A stretch of DNA of 63,709 nucleotides from contig JAHCAW010000020.1 in assembly GCA_019634695.1 (NCBI GenBank), positions 1 to 63,709 of the forward strand, in the 5' to 3' direction. This document shows, piece after piece, positions 21,326 to 54,435 of the stretch. The position numbers and the translations under genes were made by a program. The stretch comes from Candidatus Sumerlaeia bacterium. Its GTDB lineage: Bacteria > Sumerlaeota > Sumerlaeia > SLMS01 > JAHLLQ01. Numbering within the stretch: the stretch's first letter is position 1; each line of letters starts with the position of its first letter. A model generated the notes under the pieces. The model searched no databases and was not told where the DNA came from. It saw nothing but the letters and a program-made list of their open reading frames with translations.

Positions 21326-21789
21326 GCGGTGTTTCTCCTTGGAGGAGTCTCACGTGCACTACGGCACTGGTGGTGGAACAACGCCCATGCCAGTGTCCCG
21401 TGAGGATTGCGTGTGCGATGTGCGCGCACCGTGGCGCCCGGGCGCTTCCACGGCGCACGGGACCTCGACGTGTCCGCGTGCGACGCCTGCAAGTTGCGTG
21501 GCCTGAGGGACTCGCCGACTTTGCATGCCCGCGAGCCTGTCATGGCGACCGAAACCGTAAAGCTCTTTAGCCCCACGGAGGCCGAGACCTGCGATCACCG
21601 TGCCCGCGGCGGGATAGCGGATCGCACCGTGCGTCGCGCGAATGGCTCGGATGGTTCGGACTGGTCCGGGCCGGCGCGATTGCCCCCCGGAGGAACCGCT
21701 TGCCCGGCGCGGGCAGGGGTGCCTAACCCTTGACGCCCGAATGGCGCAGCATGAGCGCGCCGGACCACCCCCAACCGAAGGAAACCCCC
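21326..21789. other. 464-bp gap before leuS without a recognised gene
   Basis: This divergent region separates the hypothetical gene (minus) from leuS (plus). It holds a small hairpin TGCCCG-GCG-CGGGCA (21701-21715) and a TTGACG hexamer at 21730 without a matching -10. I see no T-box, tRNA or leader peptide. Confidence 0.5.
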
Positions 21790-24700
21790 ATGACCGAGCG
21801 CATCTACGATCCCGTACAGGTCGAGAACAGATGGCAACGGTTCTGGCGGGAGCACCGCACGAACGAGATCGATCTCGCCGCGGCCAAGAACCCCTACTAC
21901 GTTCTGATGATGTTCCCCTACCCGAGCGCGGAGGGGCTGCACGTGGGCAACGTCTACGCCTTCACCGGCGCCGACATCCAGGGGCGCTATCGCCGCCTGC
22001 GCGGCCACGACGTCTTCGAGCCCATCGGCTTCGATGCCTTCGGCATCCACAGCGAGAACTTCGCCATGAAGATCAACCGCCACCCGCGCGAGTTGATCCC
22101 CTCCAACATCCGCAACTTCACGCGCCAGCTCGAAATGATGGGCTTCATGTTCGACTGGCGGCGCACCGTCGATACCACGACGCCCGAGTACTACAAGTGG
22201 ACGCAGTGGGTCTTCCTGCAACTCTACAAGGCCGGGCTGGCCTATCGCGACGAGAAGGAGGTCAACTTCTGCCCCGCCTGCGGCACCGTCATCGCCGACG
22301 AACAGGTCAACCCCGACGGCACGTGCGAGCGCCATGGCGACACCGCTGTCGAGCGCCGCCGGATGCCGTGCTGGTTCTTCCGCATCACCGAGTTCGCCGA
22401 CCGCCTGGTCGACAACCACGCCTGGCTCGACTGGTCCGACACGACGAAGATTGCCCAGCTCAACTGGATCGGCCGCAGCGAGGGCGCCGAGGTGGACTTC
22501 CGCGTTGCCGGCTCCGACCAAACCATCCGCGTCTTCACGACGCGCCCGGACACCCTGTTCGGCGCCACCTTCATGGTGCTCAGCCCGGAGCACCCCTTGG
22601 TGGACACCATCGCGGCCCCGGACAAGAAGGCCGCCATCGCGGCGTATCGGGCAGGGGCCGCGGGAGCACTTAACTGTGGCTCGGGCGTCCCGCCCGAGTC
22701 CAGTCAGCCCCAGCCATCGCAGCAGGCCCCGGCTACTCCGCCAAACCACGCGGAAGCCCTCGACGCAGAGTTGGTGGCGGATGCTCTCGGAGCATCCTTG
22801 GGAGTCCACGAGGATGTCGAGAAGCGCATCGGTGCCTTCCTCCCCCACTGGACCCAGGGCAGCGCGATCTACTCGGTCACGTTTCGTCTCGCGGATTCCA
22901 TCCCTGCCGACGCCCTGCGCCTGTATGTTGCTGAACGTGAAGACATTCTGAAGACTGCACAGGCCTCGAAACGGCCTCTTTCGCAAGACGAGCAGCGCCG
23001 ACTCGCCGTCCTCTACTCGACGAAGATCGAAGCGGCGCTCGACCGCGGTGCGGGCGAATGTCTCCTCAAGGACGATGAGGTCGCCGGCGTTGTCGCCGAT
23101 GCACTTCGCCACTTTGACGGGGAACGGTACCGACTGCTCGCATGGTGCGTCATGCCCAACCATGTGCACGTCATCTTCGAGCCCTCCGCCGGCAACGACC
23201 TTGCTGCTATCCTGCATTCATGGAAGTCTTTCACGGCTCACCGCATCAACAGGCTGCTCGGCCGAGAGGGATCCGTCTGGCAGGCCGAGTACTTCGATCA
23301 TATCGTACGAAACGAGACGGCGCTACTCCGAGCGGCTGCGTACGTGTGGAGCAACCCCGACAAGGCACGCCTGAAGGATTGGAAGTGGCGCTGGACGACT
23401 GGGCCCGCGGAACTCGGGCGAGACGCCCGAGCCACAGTTAACGGCGCACCGGCCGGCAAGCAGAAGACCGGCGTCGATATCGGAGCGCGTGCCGTCAATC
23501 CGGTGACCGGTCAGGAGATTCCGATCTTCATCGCCGACTATGTGCTGATGGGCTATGGCACCGGCGCCATCATGGCCGTGCCCAGCGGCGATCATCGCGA
23601 CTTCGAGTTCGCGCAACGCTTTGGCCTGCGCGTGCAATCCATCATCTCGCCGGACGTGCGACAGGTCGCCCGCGAGGACTACTCGGGCATCGAGTTCATC
23701 GACGGCAAGGTGGACAGCGACGCCGAACGCGAGCGCCTGCGCCTGGCGGTCGAGGCCGGCGAGGCCGCATGGTCCGGCCCGGGAACGCTGATCAACTCCG
23801 CCAACAGCGAGATCAGCCTCAACGGCCTGCCGAAGGACGAGGCCATCGCCGCCATCACGCGCTGGCTCGAGGCCAAGGGGCTCGGGCACGCCAAGCGCCA
23901 GTATCGCCTGCGCGACTGGGGTATCAGCCGCCAGCGCTACTGGGGCCCTCCGATCCCGATCGTCTACGACGAGGCCGGCAACGCGCACCCCGTGCCCGAG
24001 GACCAACTGCCCGTCCTGCTGCCCGACACCGACGACTTCCGGCCGAAGGGCGACGGACGCGGGCCGCTTGCCAGCATCCCCGAATGGGTGAATGTCGAAA
24101 TCGACGGCAAGCGCTATCGCCGCGAGACCGACGTCATGGACAACTTCCTCGACTCGGCGTGGTACTACCTGCGCTACATTTCGTCGGACGACGACGCGCG
24201 CGCCTACGATCCCGCGCTAATCGACAAGTGGCTCCCCGTGGACATCTACATCGGCGGCAACGAGCACGCCGTCCTGCACCTGCTCTACACGCGATTCGTG
24301 TGCATGGCGCTCGAGAAGGCCGGCGCTCTGGCGATGGGCCAGCGCCCCGAGATGCGCGACGGCGCCGAACCCTTTCGCAAGTTCCGCGCGCACGGCCTCC
24401 TCATCAAGGACGGCTCCAAGATGTCCAAGAGCAAGGGCAACATCGTCAACCCCGACGAGTTCGTCGCCCAGTACGGCGGCGACACCCTGCGCACCTACCT
24501 GATGTTCCTCGGGCCGTACACGCACGGCGGCGATTTCCGCGACAAGGACATCATGGGCGTCCGCCGCTTCTTCAACCGCGTTTACGACTGGTACTTCGGC
24601 GAGCAGCAAATTGTCGAGGACGCGCAGTTGCCCAAGGAACTGCGGGTCAAGCTGCACCAGTCGATCCGCAAGTGCGGCGCCGACATCGAGGCGCTGAGCT

Positions 24701-25104
24701 ACAACACGGCCATCGCGACGCTGATGGAGTTGAGCAACGCGCTGCGCGCCGCCGAAGCGACCAGTCGCTTCGCCCGCGAGGCCTTCTGCACGATGCTGGC
24801 ACCCTTCGCGCCGCACCTCGCCGAGGAGCTCTGGCACGATGCCCTCGGCCACACGACGAGCGTCTTCGAGGCCCGCTGGCCCGAGTACAACGAGGCCCTG
24901 ACGGTTCTTGACGAGATCGAGGTCCCGATTCAGGTGAACGGCAAGGTGCGCGACAAGGTGGTCGTGCCGCGCGAGGCCGACGCCGCCGCCCTCGAGGCCG
25001 CGGCCCGTGCCAGCACCGGCGTGCAGCGGGCGCTCGAGCAGGGCGGCGAAATCCGCAAGGTGATCGTCGTCCCGGGCCGGCTCGTAAACGTCATTGTAAA
25101 ATAA
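21790..25104 (+). CDS. leuS: Leucyl-tRNA synthetase with an in-frame HUH/Y1 transposase inside its editing domain
   Basis: A continuous 1104-codon frame; ordinary bacterial LeuRS has about 810-880 residues. The N-terminal part has the HIGH-type PYPSAEGLHVGN motif, a zinc-binding FCPACG segment and the CP1 threonine-rich TTRPDTLFGATF. The CP1 domain then breaks at about residue 294. After about 257 foreign residues it resumes at KTGVDIGARAVNPVTGQEIP and the editing-site block GYGTGAIMAVPSGDHRDFEFA. KMSKS is intact (GSKMSKSKGN), as are the anticodon-binding and C-terminal domains (VPIQVNGKVRDKVVVP). The start ATG follows a weak GAAGGAA. The insert is a complete REP-associated transposase (separate entry). 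About ten to fifteen native residues of the CP1 loop, compared with E. coli LeuRS, seem absent at the junction. The gene has no frameshift or stop, so a fused product is predicted unless the insert is removed. Confidence 0.95.
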   Translation: MTERIYDPVQVENRWQRFWREHRTNEIDLAAAKNPYYVLMMFPYPSAEGLHVGNVYAFTGADIQGRYRRLRGHDVFEPIGFDAFGIHSENFAMKINRHPRELIPSNIRNFTRQLEMMGFMFDWRRTVDTTTPEYYKWTQWVFLQLYKAGLAYRDEKEVNFCPACGTVIADEQVNPDGTCERHGDTAVERRRMPCWFFRITEFADRLVDNHAWLDWSDTTKIAQLNWIGRSEGAEVDFRVAGSDQTIRVFTTRPDTLFGATFMVLSPEHPLVDTIAAPDKKAAIAAYRAGAAGALNCGSGVPPESSQPQPSQQAPATPPNHAEALDAELVADALGASLGVHEDVEKRIGAFLPHWTQGSAIYSVTFRLADSIPADALRLYVAEREDILKTAQASKRPLSQDEQRRLAVLYSTKIEAALDRGAGECLLKDDEVAGVVADALRHFDGERYRLLAWCVMPNHVHVIFEPSAGNDLAAILHSWKSFTAHRINRLLGREGSVWQAEYFDHIVRNETALLRAAAYVWSNPDKARLKDWKWRWTTGPAELGRDARATVNGAPAGKQKTGVDIGARAVNPVTGQEIPIFIADYVLMGYGTGAIMAVPSGDHRDFEFAQRFGLRVQSIISPDVRQVAREDYSGIEFIDGKVDSDAERERLRLAVEAGEAAWSGPGTLINSANSEISLNGLPKDEAIAAITRWLEAKGLGHAKRQYRLRDWGISRQRYWGPPIPIVYDEAGNAHPVPEDQLPVLLPDTDDFRPKGDGRGPLASIPEWVNVEIDGKRYRRETDVMDNFLDSAWYYLRYISSDDDARAYDPALIDKWLPVDIYIGGNEHAVLHLLYTRFVCMALEKAGALAMGQRPEMRDGAEPFRKFRAHGLLIKDGSKMSKSKGNIVNPDEFVAQYGGDTLRTYLMFLGPYTHGGDFRDKDIMGVRRFFNRVYDWYFGEQQIVEDAQLPKELRVKLHQSIRKCGADIEALSYNTAIATLMELSNALRAAEATSRFAREAFCTMLAPFAPHLAEELWHDALGHTTSVFEARWPEYNEALTVLDEIEVPIQVNGKVRDKVVVPREADAAALEAAARASTGVQRALEQGGEIRKVIVVPGRLVNVIVK
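22670..22699 (+). repeat. Left terminal inverted repeat of the leuS insert
   Basis: It begins TTAACTGTGG and continues into a perfect 8-bp hairpin, CTCGGGCG (22680-22687), loop TCC, CGCCCGAG (22691-22698). The whole 30 bases match the reverse complement of 23412-23441 with one difference in the loop. Confidence 0.9.
23412..23441 (-). repeat. Right terminal inverted repeat of the leuS insert
   Basis: It carries CTCGGGCG (23413-23420), loop AGA, CGCCCGAG (23424-23431), then CCACAGTTAA. It is the inverted partner of 22670-22699. Both ends can fold on their own as single strands, the form that HUH transposases recognise. Confidence 0.9.
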
Positions 25105-25282
25105 TCTCGGGGCGCGTCACCACACGCTCCGGGGACCACCCAGAAGCACCGAATACGACTTCGGCGAAGACGCAGCACGATTCGATCCGTGCTCGCGCTG
25201 GCAGCGGCCGGTGAAACGGTCGCTTGAGCCACCTCGAGTTGCCGGACAGCCGTCATCGGTTTCCCGGAACGGGATGACGCGG

Positions 25283-26197
25283 TCAGTCTGTCCCGGGCGG
25301 CCGACACATCAGGTGCATCGTTTCGAACTGCCCGGCGATGTTGCAGTTGTTGACCAGCGTGCCGGTGAGCACATAGCCCGCGTGGTGGAAGGTGCGCAGC
25401 ATCCCGAACGACAACGCGCGCGCGATGGTGTAGTGGCAGCGCACGCCGAAGCGCTCGCGGGCGTCGTGCTCGAGCGCGCGCAGGATGAACAGGGCCAGAC
25501 CCTTGCCGCGTTCGCTGGGCAGGGCGGCGAAGTCGGTCATCTCGGAGTTCCGATACTTCAGATTCGTCTCGGCGCTGGCAGCGGCAACGAGACGGCCCGC
25601 CTCGTTGCGCACGAGGCGATAGGCGATGTGGGTGCTCGCGGTGGCGCGCAGGTAGTCCGGGTCGTCGATCGGATAGGGGTAGGTCGGAAAGACCTCGCGA
25701 TAGAGTGCGGCGAGTTCCTCGGCATCGGCGTCGGTGAACAGGGCGGTGGTGTAGCCATCGGGAAGGTGCGTGGCCGGCTTGGCGCCCTCGCCGGCTAGCG
25801 CGGCGGCAAGGATCTGCTCCTCCTGCTCGCGGTGGGGCCGGAAGCGGCGCTCCTCACTCAGGAAGCAGGTCATCGACGCCGCATCGACTCCTTTGTAGTA
25901 TCCCAGGATATGGCCTTCGCATTCGAAGCCGGCGGCCTCGAGGGCATCGCGGTCGGTCGCCGGGGCCTTGGTCCAGACCTTGCCGTAGCCGTTGCGGCGG
26001 GCCAGGGCCAGGAGGTCGGCCGTCAGGGCATCGAGGTCCCGGGCCTGATAGGTGAGGACCTGGATGCGCTCGTTGATGGGGCTGAGCAGGAGTTCGGCCT
26101 CGTAGGCGCCCGGGCGCTCGATCCGGTGCTCGAACCCGTAAGGTGTCGGGAGTTGGACGGTGCTTCCGTCCTGCAGGATGACGGGCCAGGAGGGCAT
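25283..26197 (-). CDS. ablB: Putative beta-lysine N6-acetyltransferase
   Basis: A 304-aa GNAT protein with features of AblB, which acetylates beta-lysine to the osmolyte N6-acetyl-beta-lysine. Visible hallmarks are YKGVDAASM, VFPTYPYPIDDPDYL, the acetyl-CoA region with SEMTDFAALPSERGKGLALF, YTIARALSFGM, and the C-terminal GTLVNNCNIAGQFETM. The ATG at 26197 follows GAGG. The partner gene ablA (lysine 2,3-aminomutase) is not in the window. The family match is by remembered motif pattern, so a related GNAT activity is possible. Confidence 0.8.
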   Translation of the reverse strand: MPSWPVILQDGSTVQLPTPYGFEHRIERPGAYEAELLLSPINERIQVLTYQARDLDALTADLLALARRNGYGKVWTKAPATDRDALEAAGFECEGHILGYYKGVDAASMTCFLSEERRFRPHREQEEQILAAALAGEGAKPATHLPDGYTTALFTDADAEELAALYREVFPTYPYPIDDPDYLRATASTHIAYRLVRNEAGRLVAAASAETNLKYRNSEMTDFAALPSERGKGLALFILRALEHDARERFGVRCHYTIARALSFGMLRTFHHAGYVLTGTLVNNCNIAGQFETMHLMCRPPGTD

Positions 26198-53979: not shown

Positions 53980-54435
53980 TCAATCCCACACGTATCGCTC
54001 ATCCCACTCAAGGTTGTGCTTCCTCAACAGCGCCCGGTATTCGTCCTGAAATGACTCCTTCCGGTGTCGCGCCTCCTGGCCAAGAACGTAGGAGCGAACG
54101 CGCTCGATATTCGACATGCTGACGGAAAACAGCCCACACCCGGATTGCCAGTAGAAGTCGGCAAGGTGCGGGCTCTGGGTCTTGATCCACGTGCTCGAGA
54201 CGCGCTTCACCTCCTTGACCCACTCGCGCTGCGTGATACCGCCCCCGAGCCTGGCAAGCACGTGCACATGATCCTCGACACCGCCGACCACGAGGGTGGG
54301 GCATTCGAGCTTGGCCGAGACTCCGCCAAGATAGGAATGAACCTCGGCACGCAGCACCGCGTCGCGCAGGAACGGTTGGCGGTTCTTGGTCGAGAAGACG
54401 AGATGCGCGTACATGGCCGAGAAGGACTGGGGCAT
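53980..54435 (-). CDS. tnpA: IS200/IS605-family transposase TnpA
   Basis: A 151-aa HUH single-strand transposase. It opens MPQSFSAMYAHLVFSTKNRQPF and has the HVH metal pair at 56-58 (EDHVHVL). The probable nucleophile is Tyr116 in the helix VRSYVLGQEARHRK, with conserved Gln120, and it ends in ...LRKHNLEWDERYVWD. Length and motifs are those of a complete IS200 TnpA. The ATG at 54435 follows AAGGAG at eight bases. No TnpB is present. Confidence 0.95.
   Translation of the reverse strand: MPQSFSAMYAHLVFSTKNRQPFLRDAVLRAEVHSYLGGVSAKLECPTLVVGGVEDHVHVLARLGGGITQREWVKEVKRVSSTWIKTQSPHLADFYWQSGCGLFSVSMSNIERVRSYVLGQEARHRKESFQDEYRALLRKHNLEWDERYVWD

Follow-up and report, generated by a model that had tools for sequence, protein, structure and literature searches.

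Can a DNA transposase reside within an essential enzyme of translation and be produced as part of it? This question is raised by leuS, the essential gene for leucyl-tRNA synthetase (LeuRS), in a contig of Candidatus Sumerlaeia bacterium (the window, i.e., the whole stretch of 63,709 nucleotides that was analysed), where a REP-associated tyrosine transposase (RAYT or TnpAREP; REP, repetitive extragenic palindrome) is encoded in the middle of the synthetase. The insert is a complete REP-flanked RAYT transposon, or REPtron, lying in frame in the connective peptide 1 (CP1) editing domain of the only leuS found in the genome that carries the window (G000, a draft of 4.35 Mb in 127 contigs, 85.9% complete). 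From the sequence evidence, we infer that leuS and the RAYT are likely to be translated as one chimera in which both halves work.

A single stop-free frame, opened by an ATG at 21790, holds both parts, which are arranged along the window as follows.

21790..25104, + strand: leuS with the nested RAYT, one open frame of 1104 amino acids (aa) plus stop
21790..22669, + strand: LeuRS N-terminal part, with the catalytic core and the first portion of CP1; HVGN at 21940-21951
22670..22699, + strand: left REP (TTAACT, GTGG head, 8-bp stem, 3-nt loop), translated in frame
22672..22851, + strand: linker, residues 295-354, predicted with low confidence (see below); holds REP-encoded residues and the start of the aligned core
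22807..23406, + strand: RAYT (TnpAREP, HUH/Y1) core, residues 340-539, with boundaries as cut for comparisons
23161..23169, + strand: HUH motif His-Val-His, residues 458-460; both His invariant in alignment A1
23341..23343, + strand: motif tyrosine, residue 518 (YVWSNP); invariant in alignment A1
23412..23441, − strand: right REP, the inverted copy of the left REP, from the inverted-repeat comparison
23442..25104, + strand: LeuRS remainder, with the rest of CP1, the catalytic core, and the anticodon and C-terminal domains; KMSKS at 24418-24432

The product of this frame matches five Pfam families at E≤0.001, which cover the LeuRS editing domain, the class I synthetase and anticodon domains and Y1_Tnp, the last of these at residues 446-519 (E 2.4e-7). 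Its alignment with Thermus LeuRS (1h3n) breaks at residue 286 (query 289) and is picked up again at residue 295 (query 552), inside CP1. According to these matches, this alignment and the model comparison described below, the class I motifs, the CP1 editing domain and the LeuRS fold are all present in the leuS product. The first-pass annotation of the locus was therefore right in reading one frame from LeuRS through the transposase and back into LeuRS, in placing His-Val-His at residues 458-460 and a tyrosine at 518, and in stating that the LeuRS signature motifs had been kept. Its description of about 257 residues of complete RAYT holds in part: the RAYT is complete, but its core accounts for only about 200 aa, the rest of the insert consisting of linkers, REP-encoded and other. 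The Y-motif table, a part of PMC6006769, suggests a catalytic role for Tyr518.

The borders of the insert are inverted repeats with a GTGG head (22670-22710 and 23401-23441), which form hairpins as single-stranded DNA (z −5.3 on the left and −2.1 on the right, relative to shuffled sequences). These REP repeats are not mentioned in the first-pass annotation. At the left REP, a CT dinucleotide adjoins GTGG on its 5′ side; a passage of PMC8266576 describes cleavage by the E. coli TnpAREP at a CT adjoining the REP. Copies of a 17-mer of the leuS REP, with up to one mismatch, number 42 in G000, one in G001, a genome of the same genus that lacks this RAYT, and zero in 10 others, the 42 copies being fewer than the more than 100 REPs per genome given as usual in a passage of PMC2817692. 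Sixteen inverted REP pairs are present in G000, namely the leuS pair and 15 units of 158-170 bp that resemble REPINs (REP doublets forming hairpins). Additionally, the nested RAYT is the sole member of its family found in this draft at E≤1e-20, and no copy of the leuS REP lies in the locus of any of the other five Y1 genes in G000. Because of the 42 cognate REPs, the single RAYT of the family and the other Y1 genes without this REP, the LeuRS-embedded RAYT is likely to be the mobiliser of the REPs of G000. A second genome with a RAYT in LeuRS, G008, has a REP of its own, found 16 times in G008, eight times in G009, once in G007 and not at all in nine others. The window also holds a further Y1_Tnp gene (54082-54423, − strand; L067), which lies outside the leuS RAYT family at E≤1e-20 and has no copy of its REP nearby.

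In the AlphaFold2 model of the chimera (65 sequences; mean predicted local distance difference test, pLDDT, 85.7; predicted template modelling score, pTM, 0.71), LeuRS and most of residues 355-542, which correspond to the RAYT, are confidently predicted, and the linkers (295-354 and 543-556) have a pLDDT <50. The whole model resembles LeuRS structures (2bte, TMt 0.81), and a model of the RAYT only (20 sequences, mean pLDDT 75.6) has TnpAREP 4er8 as its best match and the sole one at E≤0.001 (E 2.5e-5, TMt 0.56). The predicted fold, with LeuRS and the RAYT folded and the linkers disordered, supports the idea of two working domains.

A normal enzyme could also be obtained if the insert left the DNA, the RNA or the protein, through precise excision, as an intron or by unrecognised protein splicing; the first-pass annotation had itself offered the choice between a fused enzyme and a gene restored by excision. 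Insert-free relatives exist, and IStrons, transposons made harmless by splicing (as described in passages of PMC4227781), provide a precedent for such a removal. However, Rfam gave zero matches at gathering scores between 21500 and 25500, no intein or Hint splicing domain is found among the five Pfam families, and the element is stop-free and in frame from end to end, something that removal would not need; a stop codon opens most IStrons, according to the same passages. A search of the 85.9% complete G000 assembly, moreover, found no second leuS, and G008 has the same arrangement. As a stop-free frame is unneeded for excision and searches of most genomes tested with nested copies gave a single copy of the host gene (see below), a need for excision before expression is unsupported; the fused enzyme is the half of the earlier alternative that stands, and a restored product seems very unlikely.

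Elsewhere in the order, 11 genomes were compared, and LeuRS lacks the insert in 10 of them. G008, from another family, carries a RAYT in frame at the same LeuRS place on a 150-kb contig, and RAYTs are found at this site in P0077, P0094 and P0266 as well. The insert-free LeuRS P0242 (423-kb contig) is 97% identical to that of the window over 280 N-terminal residues and 92% identical over 559 C-terminal residues. Since P0094, a Sumerlaeota LeuRS fragment with RAYT, and the insert-free LeuRS of G009 show a single differing residue in their shared part, a gain or a loss, in either direction, is by this comparison recent in the P0094/G009 lineage. One ancient insertion into LeuRS is not favoured, as relatives are empty and the five RAYTs of the site fall into more than one clade. 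The inserts of P0076 and L105 occupy a second position in CP1 and are distinct from those at the leuS site of the window.

The same loop varies in other ways. Loops ARATDAAHDTGVRSP of G009 (P0267) and GAGVSPAEGVP of P0247 resemble REP-encoded peptides without a RAYT; they are possibly solitary REPs or footprints, and that of G009 may hold REP remnants. In P0254, a LeuRS of 948 aa that carries PF05157, a different domain, the loop has about 100 extra residues; in P0280 and P0282 PF05157 is present and the CP1 loop is short. From these sequences, the CP1 loop looks like a general insertion point.

An assembly error that fused leuS with a RAYT locus would be conceivable in a draft metagenome-assembled genome (MAG), and REPs are repeats where assemblers can fail. 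Nevertheless, the LeuRS-site arrangement is shared by G008, on its 150-kb contig, and by P0077, P0094 and P0266, and in other host genes nested copies lie on contigs of 4.0 to 6.2 Mb (P0005, P0009, P0079, P0080) and in records not labelled as MAGs, those of Opitutaceae bacterium TAV1 (MenF-type host) and Verrucomicrobiaceae bacterium E54 (IspG host), which are probably isolates. We regard such an error as highly improbable.

Those other host genes were found by a protein search with words from the RAYT part (target length 0.55-1.75 times the full length, E≤1e-5), which returned 1,501 long proteins with this transposase from 7,994 scored candidates. Host tallies cover 120 listed of these 1,501 proteins, sorted by their listed Pfam domains; the RAYT is internal, with at least 100 residues on each side, in 112 of them. 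The hosts are DinG-type helicases (40), valyl-tRNA synthetase (ValRS, 16), adenine-type methyltransferases (16), PF01555 methyltransferases (11), type ISP enzymes (10), MenF-type enzymes (5), DUF1156 proteins (4), MetH (4), LeuRS (3) and IspG (2), with none for two proteins and seven single cases. Two RAYTs per protein are present in all four MetH, both IspG and three of the four DUF1156 proteins; in MetH P0004-P0007 and IspG P0002-P0003 they stand at two sites of one polypeptide. The position of the core is similar within ValRS and within full-length DinG; one protein of each group was mapped, and the insert falls between the positions of Thermus residues 204 and 209 in ValRS P0042 and ahead of the segment that matches E. 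coli residue 484 in DinG P0080.

Additionally, in a scan of contigs from the Genome Taxonomy Database (GTDB), of which the best 80 of 513 confirmed stretches were analysed, 37 loci were nested by the 100-residue rule. The scan, whose loci partly overlap with the listed proteins (G008 and at least one identical core), adds alanyl-tRNA synthetase (AlaRS; at least three loci, with the RAYT ahead of CGGTH, of which two were checked with Pfam) and Sua5. In a survey of the class covering 39 genomes, RAYTs were matched 10 times at E≤1e-20; four of these matches are in frames longer than 1000 aa, and one has an internal stop. The first-pass annotation had proposed a search for in-frame RAYTs in other essential genes; such copies do recur in conserved, often essential genes, among them ValRS, AlaRS, IspG, DinG and MetH. 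By these comparisons, the case in the window is one of a recurrent class, its element is a REP-flanked REPtron and its LeuRS has insert-free relatives; the recurrence in many other assemblies argues against a chance origin. Judged by eye, a second nested RAYT of G008 (L080, G008:C74) lies in what looks like a DNA methyltransferase (1437-aa frame), with REP-like peptides in frame elsewhere in the protein (TGVSPV...GGTPVPH), and L074 (G024:C8; 1324-aa frame) is a RAYT nested in a type I restriction R subunit-like protein. In the mapped synthetase hosts (LeuRS, ValRS and AlaRS) the insert stands in the proofreading domain or on its border.

Second copies of the host genes were also looked for outside G000. 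A second ValRS gene was not found at E≤1e-40 in 11 of 12 draft genomes; in G066 the matches are scattered over contigs and unclear, and in G072 the gene is cut by the contig end. Likewise, no second IspG was found in five of five draft genomes and no second AlaRS in three of three. In G076 and G079 the IspG match (861 and 850 codons, respectively) extends beyond the stop-free frame (841 and 842 aa) across stop codons.

Several features of the nested copies read as signs of adaptation. REP arms above shuffled controls were present in 30 of the 37 nested loci and in 34 of 42 others, some of which end at contig edges and may themselves be nested (one more locus has no flank). The frame is open across both arms in all 30 of these nested loci and in 11 of the 34 others, and an ATG stands between the left REP and the core in 3/30 and 16/34, respectively (linker lengths differ). 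REP-type peptides, defined by patterns composed after the flanks had been viewed, flank 79 of 128 cores on both sides (94 on the left and 100 on the right), compared with 2 and 1 of 128 control stretches. A methionine lies no more than 30 aa upstream of the core in 33 of 123 nested copies versus 75 of 114 free ones, some of which may be fragments (Fisher p 1.5e-9, relatedness uncorrected). By these counts, own start codons are rarer in nested copies. A target duplication was considered and none was seen; among loci with clear ends, the head-to-head length of the element is 1 mod 3 in 18 of 24 that are nested (6 more being unclear) versus 9 of 22 others (12 unclear), which fits a constant two-base addition, the rows being non-independent.

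The nested RAYT could still be a tolerated passenger that landed by chance in a permissive loop, in which case the chimera would charge tRNA while the transposase half would be idle and would decay. The absence of the insert from this site in 10 of the 11 relatives within the order, the variable length of the loop (about 100 residues more in P0254) and the diversity of the five LeuRS-site RAYTs are in line with this possibility. On the other hand, the H, H, Y set is complete in 165 of 167 nested cores (and in 113 of 114 free ones), and the ratio of nonsynonymous to synonymous divergence (dN/dS) of the RAYT is about 0.11 both in the ValRS pair L112-L119 (dN 0.08, dS 0.71; N-terminal host part, dN 0.02, dS 0.56) and in the methyltransferase pair L101-L115 (dN 0.13, dS 1.22). 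The 42 cognate REPs of G000, compared with one in the same-genus G001, also speak against an idle half, as do the groups that RAYTs form by host gene. In a tree of 87 chosen cores, the AlaRS copies are one strongly supported group, and those of MetH, IspG and DinG form one group each with weaker support (61 to 78% bootstrap). Taken together, a mere passenger is unlikely.

In the same tree, the ValRS copies need two changes, four of the five LeuRS-site copies group weakly (85/78), with G008 apart, and the second LeuRS site is separate. On a FastTree tree of 252 cores, host labels require 53 changes, compared with 128 in shuffles. Because of these host-gene groups and label changes, the trees are read as fidelity to the host gene, by inheritance or site preference, together with several independent entries. 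As each RAYT position forms its own clade among the tree-placed MetH proteins, the occupation of both MetH sites probably predates the divergence of these lineages.

These observations can be joined in a reading of the whole class to which we give moderate credence. RAYT elements would enter tolerant loops of conserved, often essential genes in frame (the editing domains of Leu-, Val- and AlaRS, IspG, MetH, DinG and Sua5), drop their own start codon, be translated with the host enzyme, mobilise REPINs genome-wide and persist as careless deletion harms the cell; in short, they would be inteins without splicing. Initially, RAYT-type single-strand transposition would put the REP-RAYT-REP unit into a surface loop of a conserved gene. 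Since the host gene is needed, only frame-keeping insertions would survive. As both REPs and the transposase form one stop-free frame, the element would borrow the promoter, start codon and ribosome binding site of its host. The insert is predicted to adopt a fold of its own, attached through disordered linkers that are in part REP-encoded, and the host enzyme would thereby keep its fold. The host gene would then shield the element, because most frameshifts, stops and imprecise deletions would break the essential enzyme too, and its persistence would be intein-like without splicing. Finally, the nested RAYT would mobilise the REP and REPIN-like copies elsewhere in the genome.

Several points weigh against this reading and that of the window. 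The draft of G000 is incomplete and may lack another leuS or RAYT that the cell has; the genomes of the ValRS, AlaRS and IspG copy check are drafts as well, some of them small (1.4 and 1.8 Mb), and the source assemblies are mostly metagenome-assembled. ValRS of G070 and AlaRS of G073 are each split over two overlapping frames, so the host gene is not intact there. Two nested cores lack the full H, H, Y set, and dN/dS is usable in the pairs L112-L119 and L101-L115 only, the dS of other pairs being near or beyond saturation. The five RAYTs at the LeuRS site are not one clade; therefore, a single inherited domain does not explain them. REP numbers track RAYT presence, yet the copies could be older than the activity or have survived its loss. 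The family also includes free RAYTs, with a frame that stays open across both REPs in 11 of 34, so a RAYT need not be nested. The idea of in-frame REPINs as a general pattern in G000 is not supported either: an open reading frame (ORF) spans 13 of 18 REP loci, but of 10 of these ORFs compared with Pfam two matched at E≤0.001, one of the two above its cut-off, and with so few matches REPINs are not generally in-frame passengers in G000.

Passages of PMC8266576 call TnpAREP domesticated and the dissemination of REPs poorly understood. Provided that the nested copies are active, mobile DNA can persist as part of an essential protein without splicing, hidden in and expressed by genes that the host cannot lose, and one polypeptide would serve both translation and DNA transposition. 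One survey, according to a passage of PMC6006769, dropped unexpectedly long family members; fused proteins set aside as "long" in transposase surveys may conceal a lifestyle. LeuRS, ValRS, AlaRS and DinG, furthermore, offer natural, evolution-tested insertion points.

The search for earlier descriptions covered open-licence PMC papers, with subscription papers and preprints outside it, and gave none of a whole RAYT nested in a housekeeping enzyme. Short in-frame REPs, Rickettsia palindromic elements (RPEs), inteins and IStrons are already known. Inteins with homing endonucleases are in-frame mobile elements of conserved genes, with a nested nuclease and a patchy distribution among relatives. 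The insert in the window shares with them the in-frame nesting in a conserved gene and the differences in presence and absence, but no splicing domain was found in it, it is predicted to stay in the product, and it has an HUH transposase and REP ends. Inserts of RPEs are not known to encode a transposase. These elements, named in PMC3733652, are alike in being in-frame palindromic repeats in protein genes, and passages of the same paper describe palindromic REPs translated in frame within ORFs, including those of tRNA synthetases; REPs inserted within tnpAREP genes with the frame unbroken are reported in a part of PMC6006769. The passages of PMC3733652 on such inserts give them 20 to 82 aa and mention no nested transposase gene, whereas a complete RAYT is encoded here, unlike in these short REP and RPE inserts. 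IStrons are similar as transposons in genes, often in frame (passages of PMC4227781), but they are made harmless by a group I intron, of which none was found at 21500-25500. The closest likeness in fold is predicted with RAYT/TnpAREP (4er8), the REPtron system itself, which also has the HUH and tyrosine motifs, the flanking inverted hairpins with a GT[AG]G head and the cognate REPs and REPIN-like pairs. In the papers covered, however, RAYTs are separate genes, whereas in leuS the complete unit is read as part of a housekeeping enzyme.

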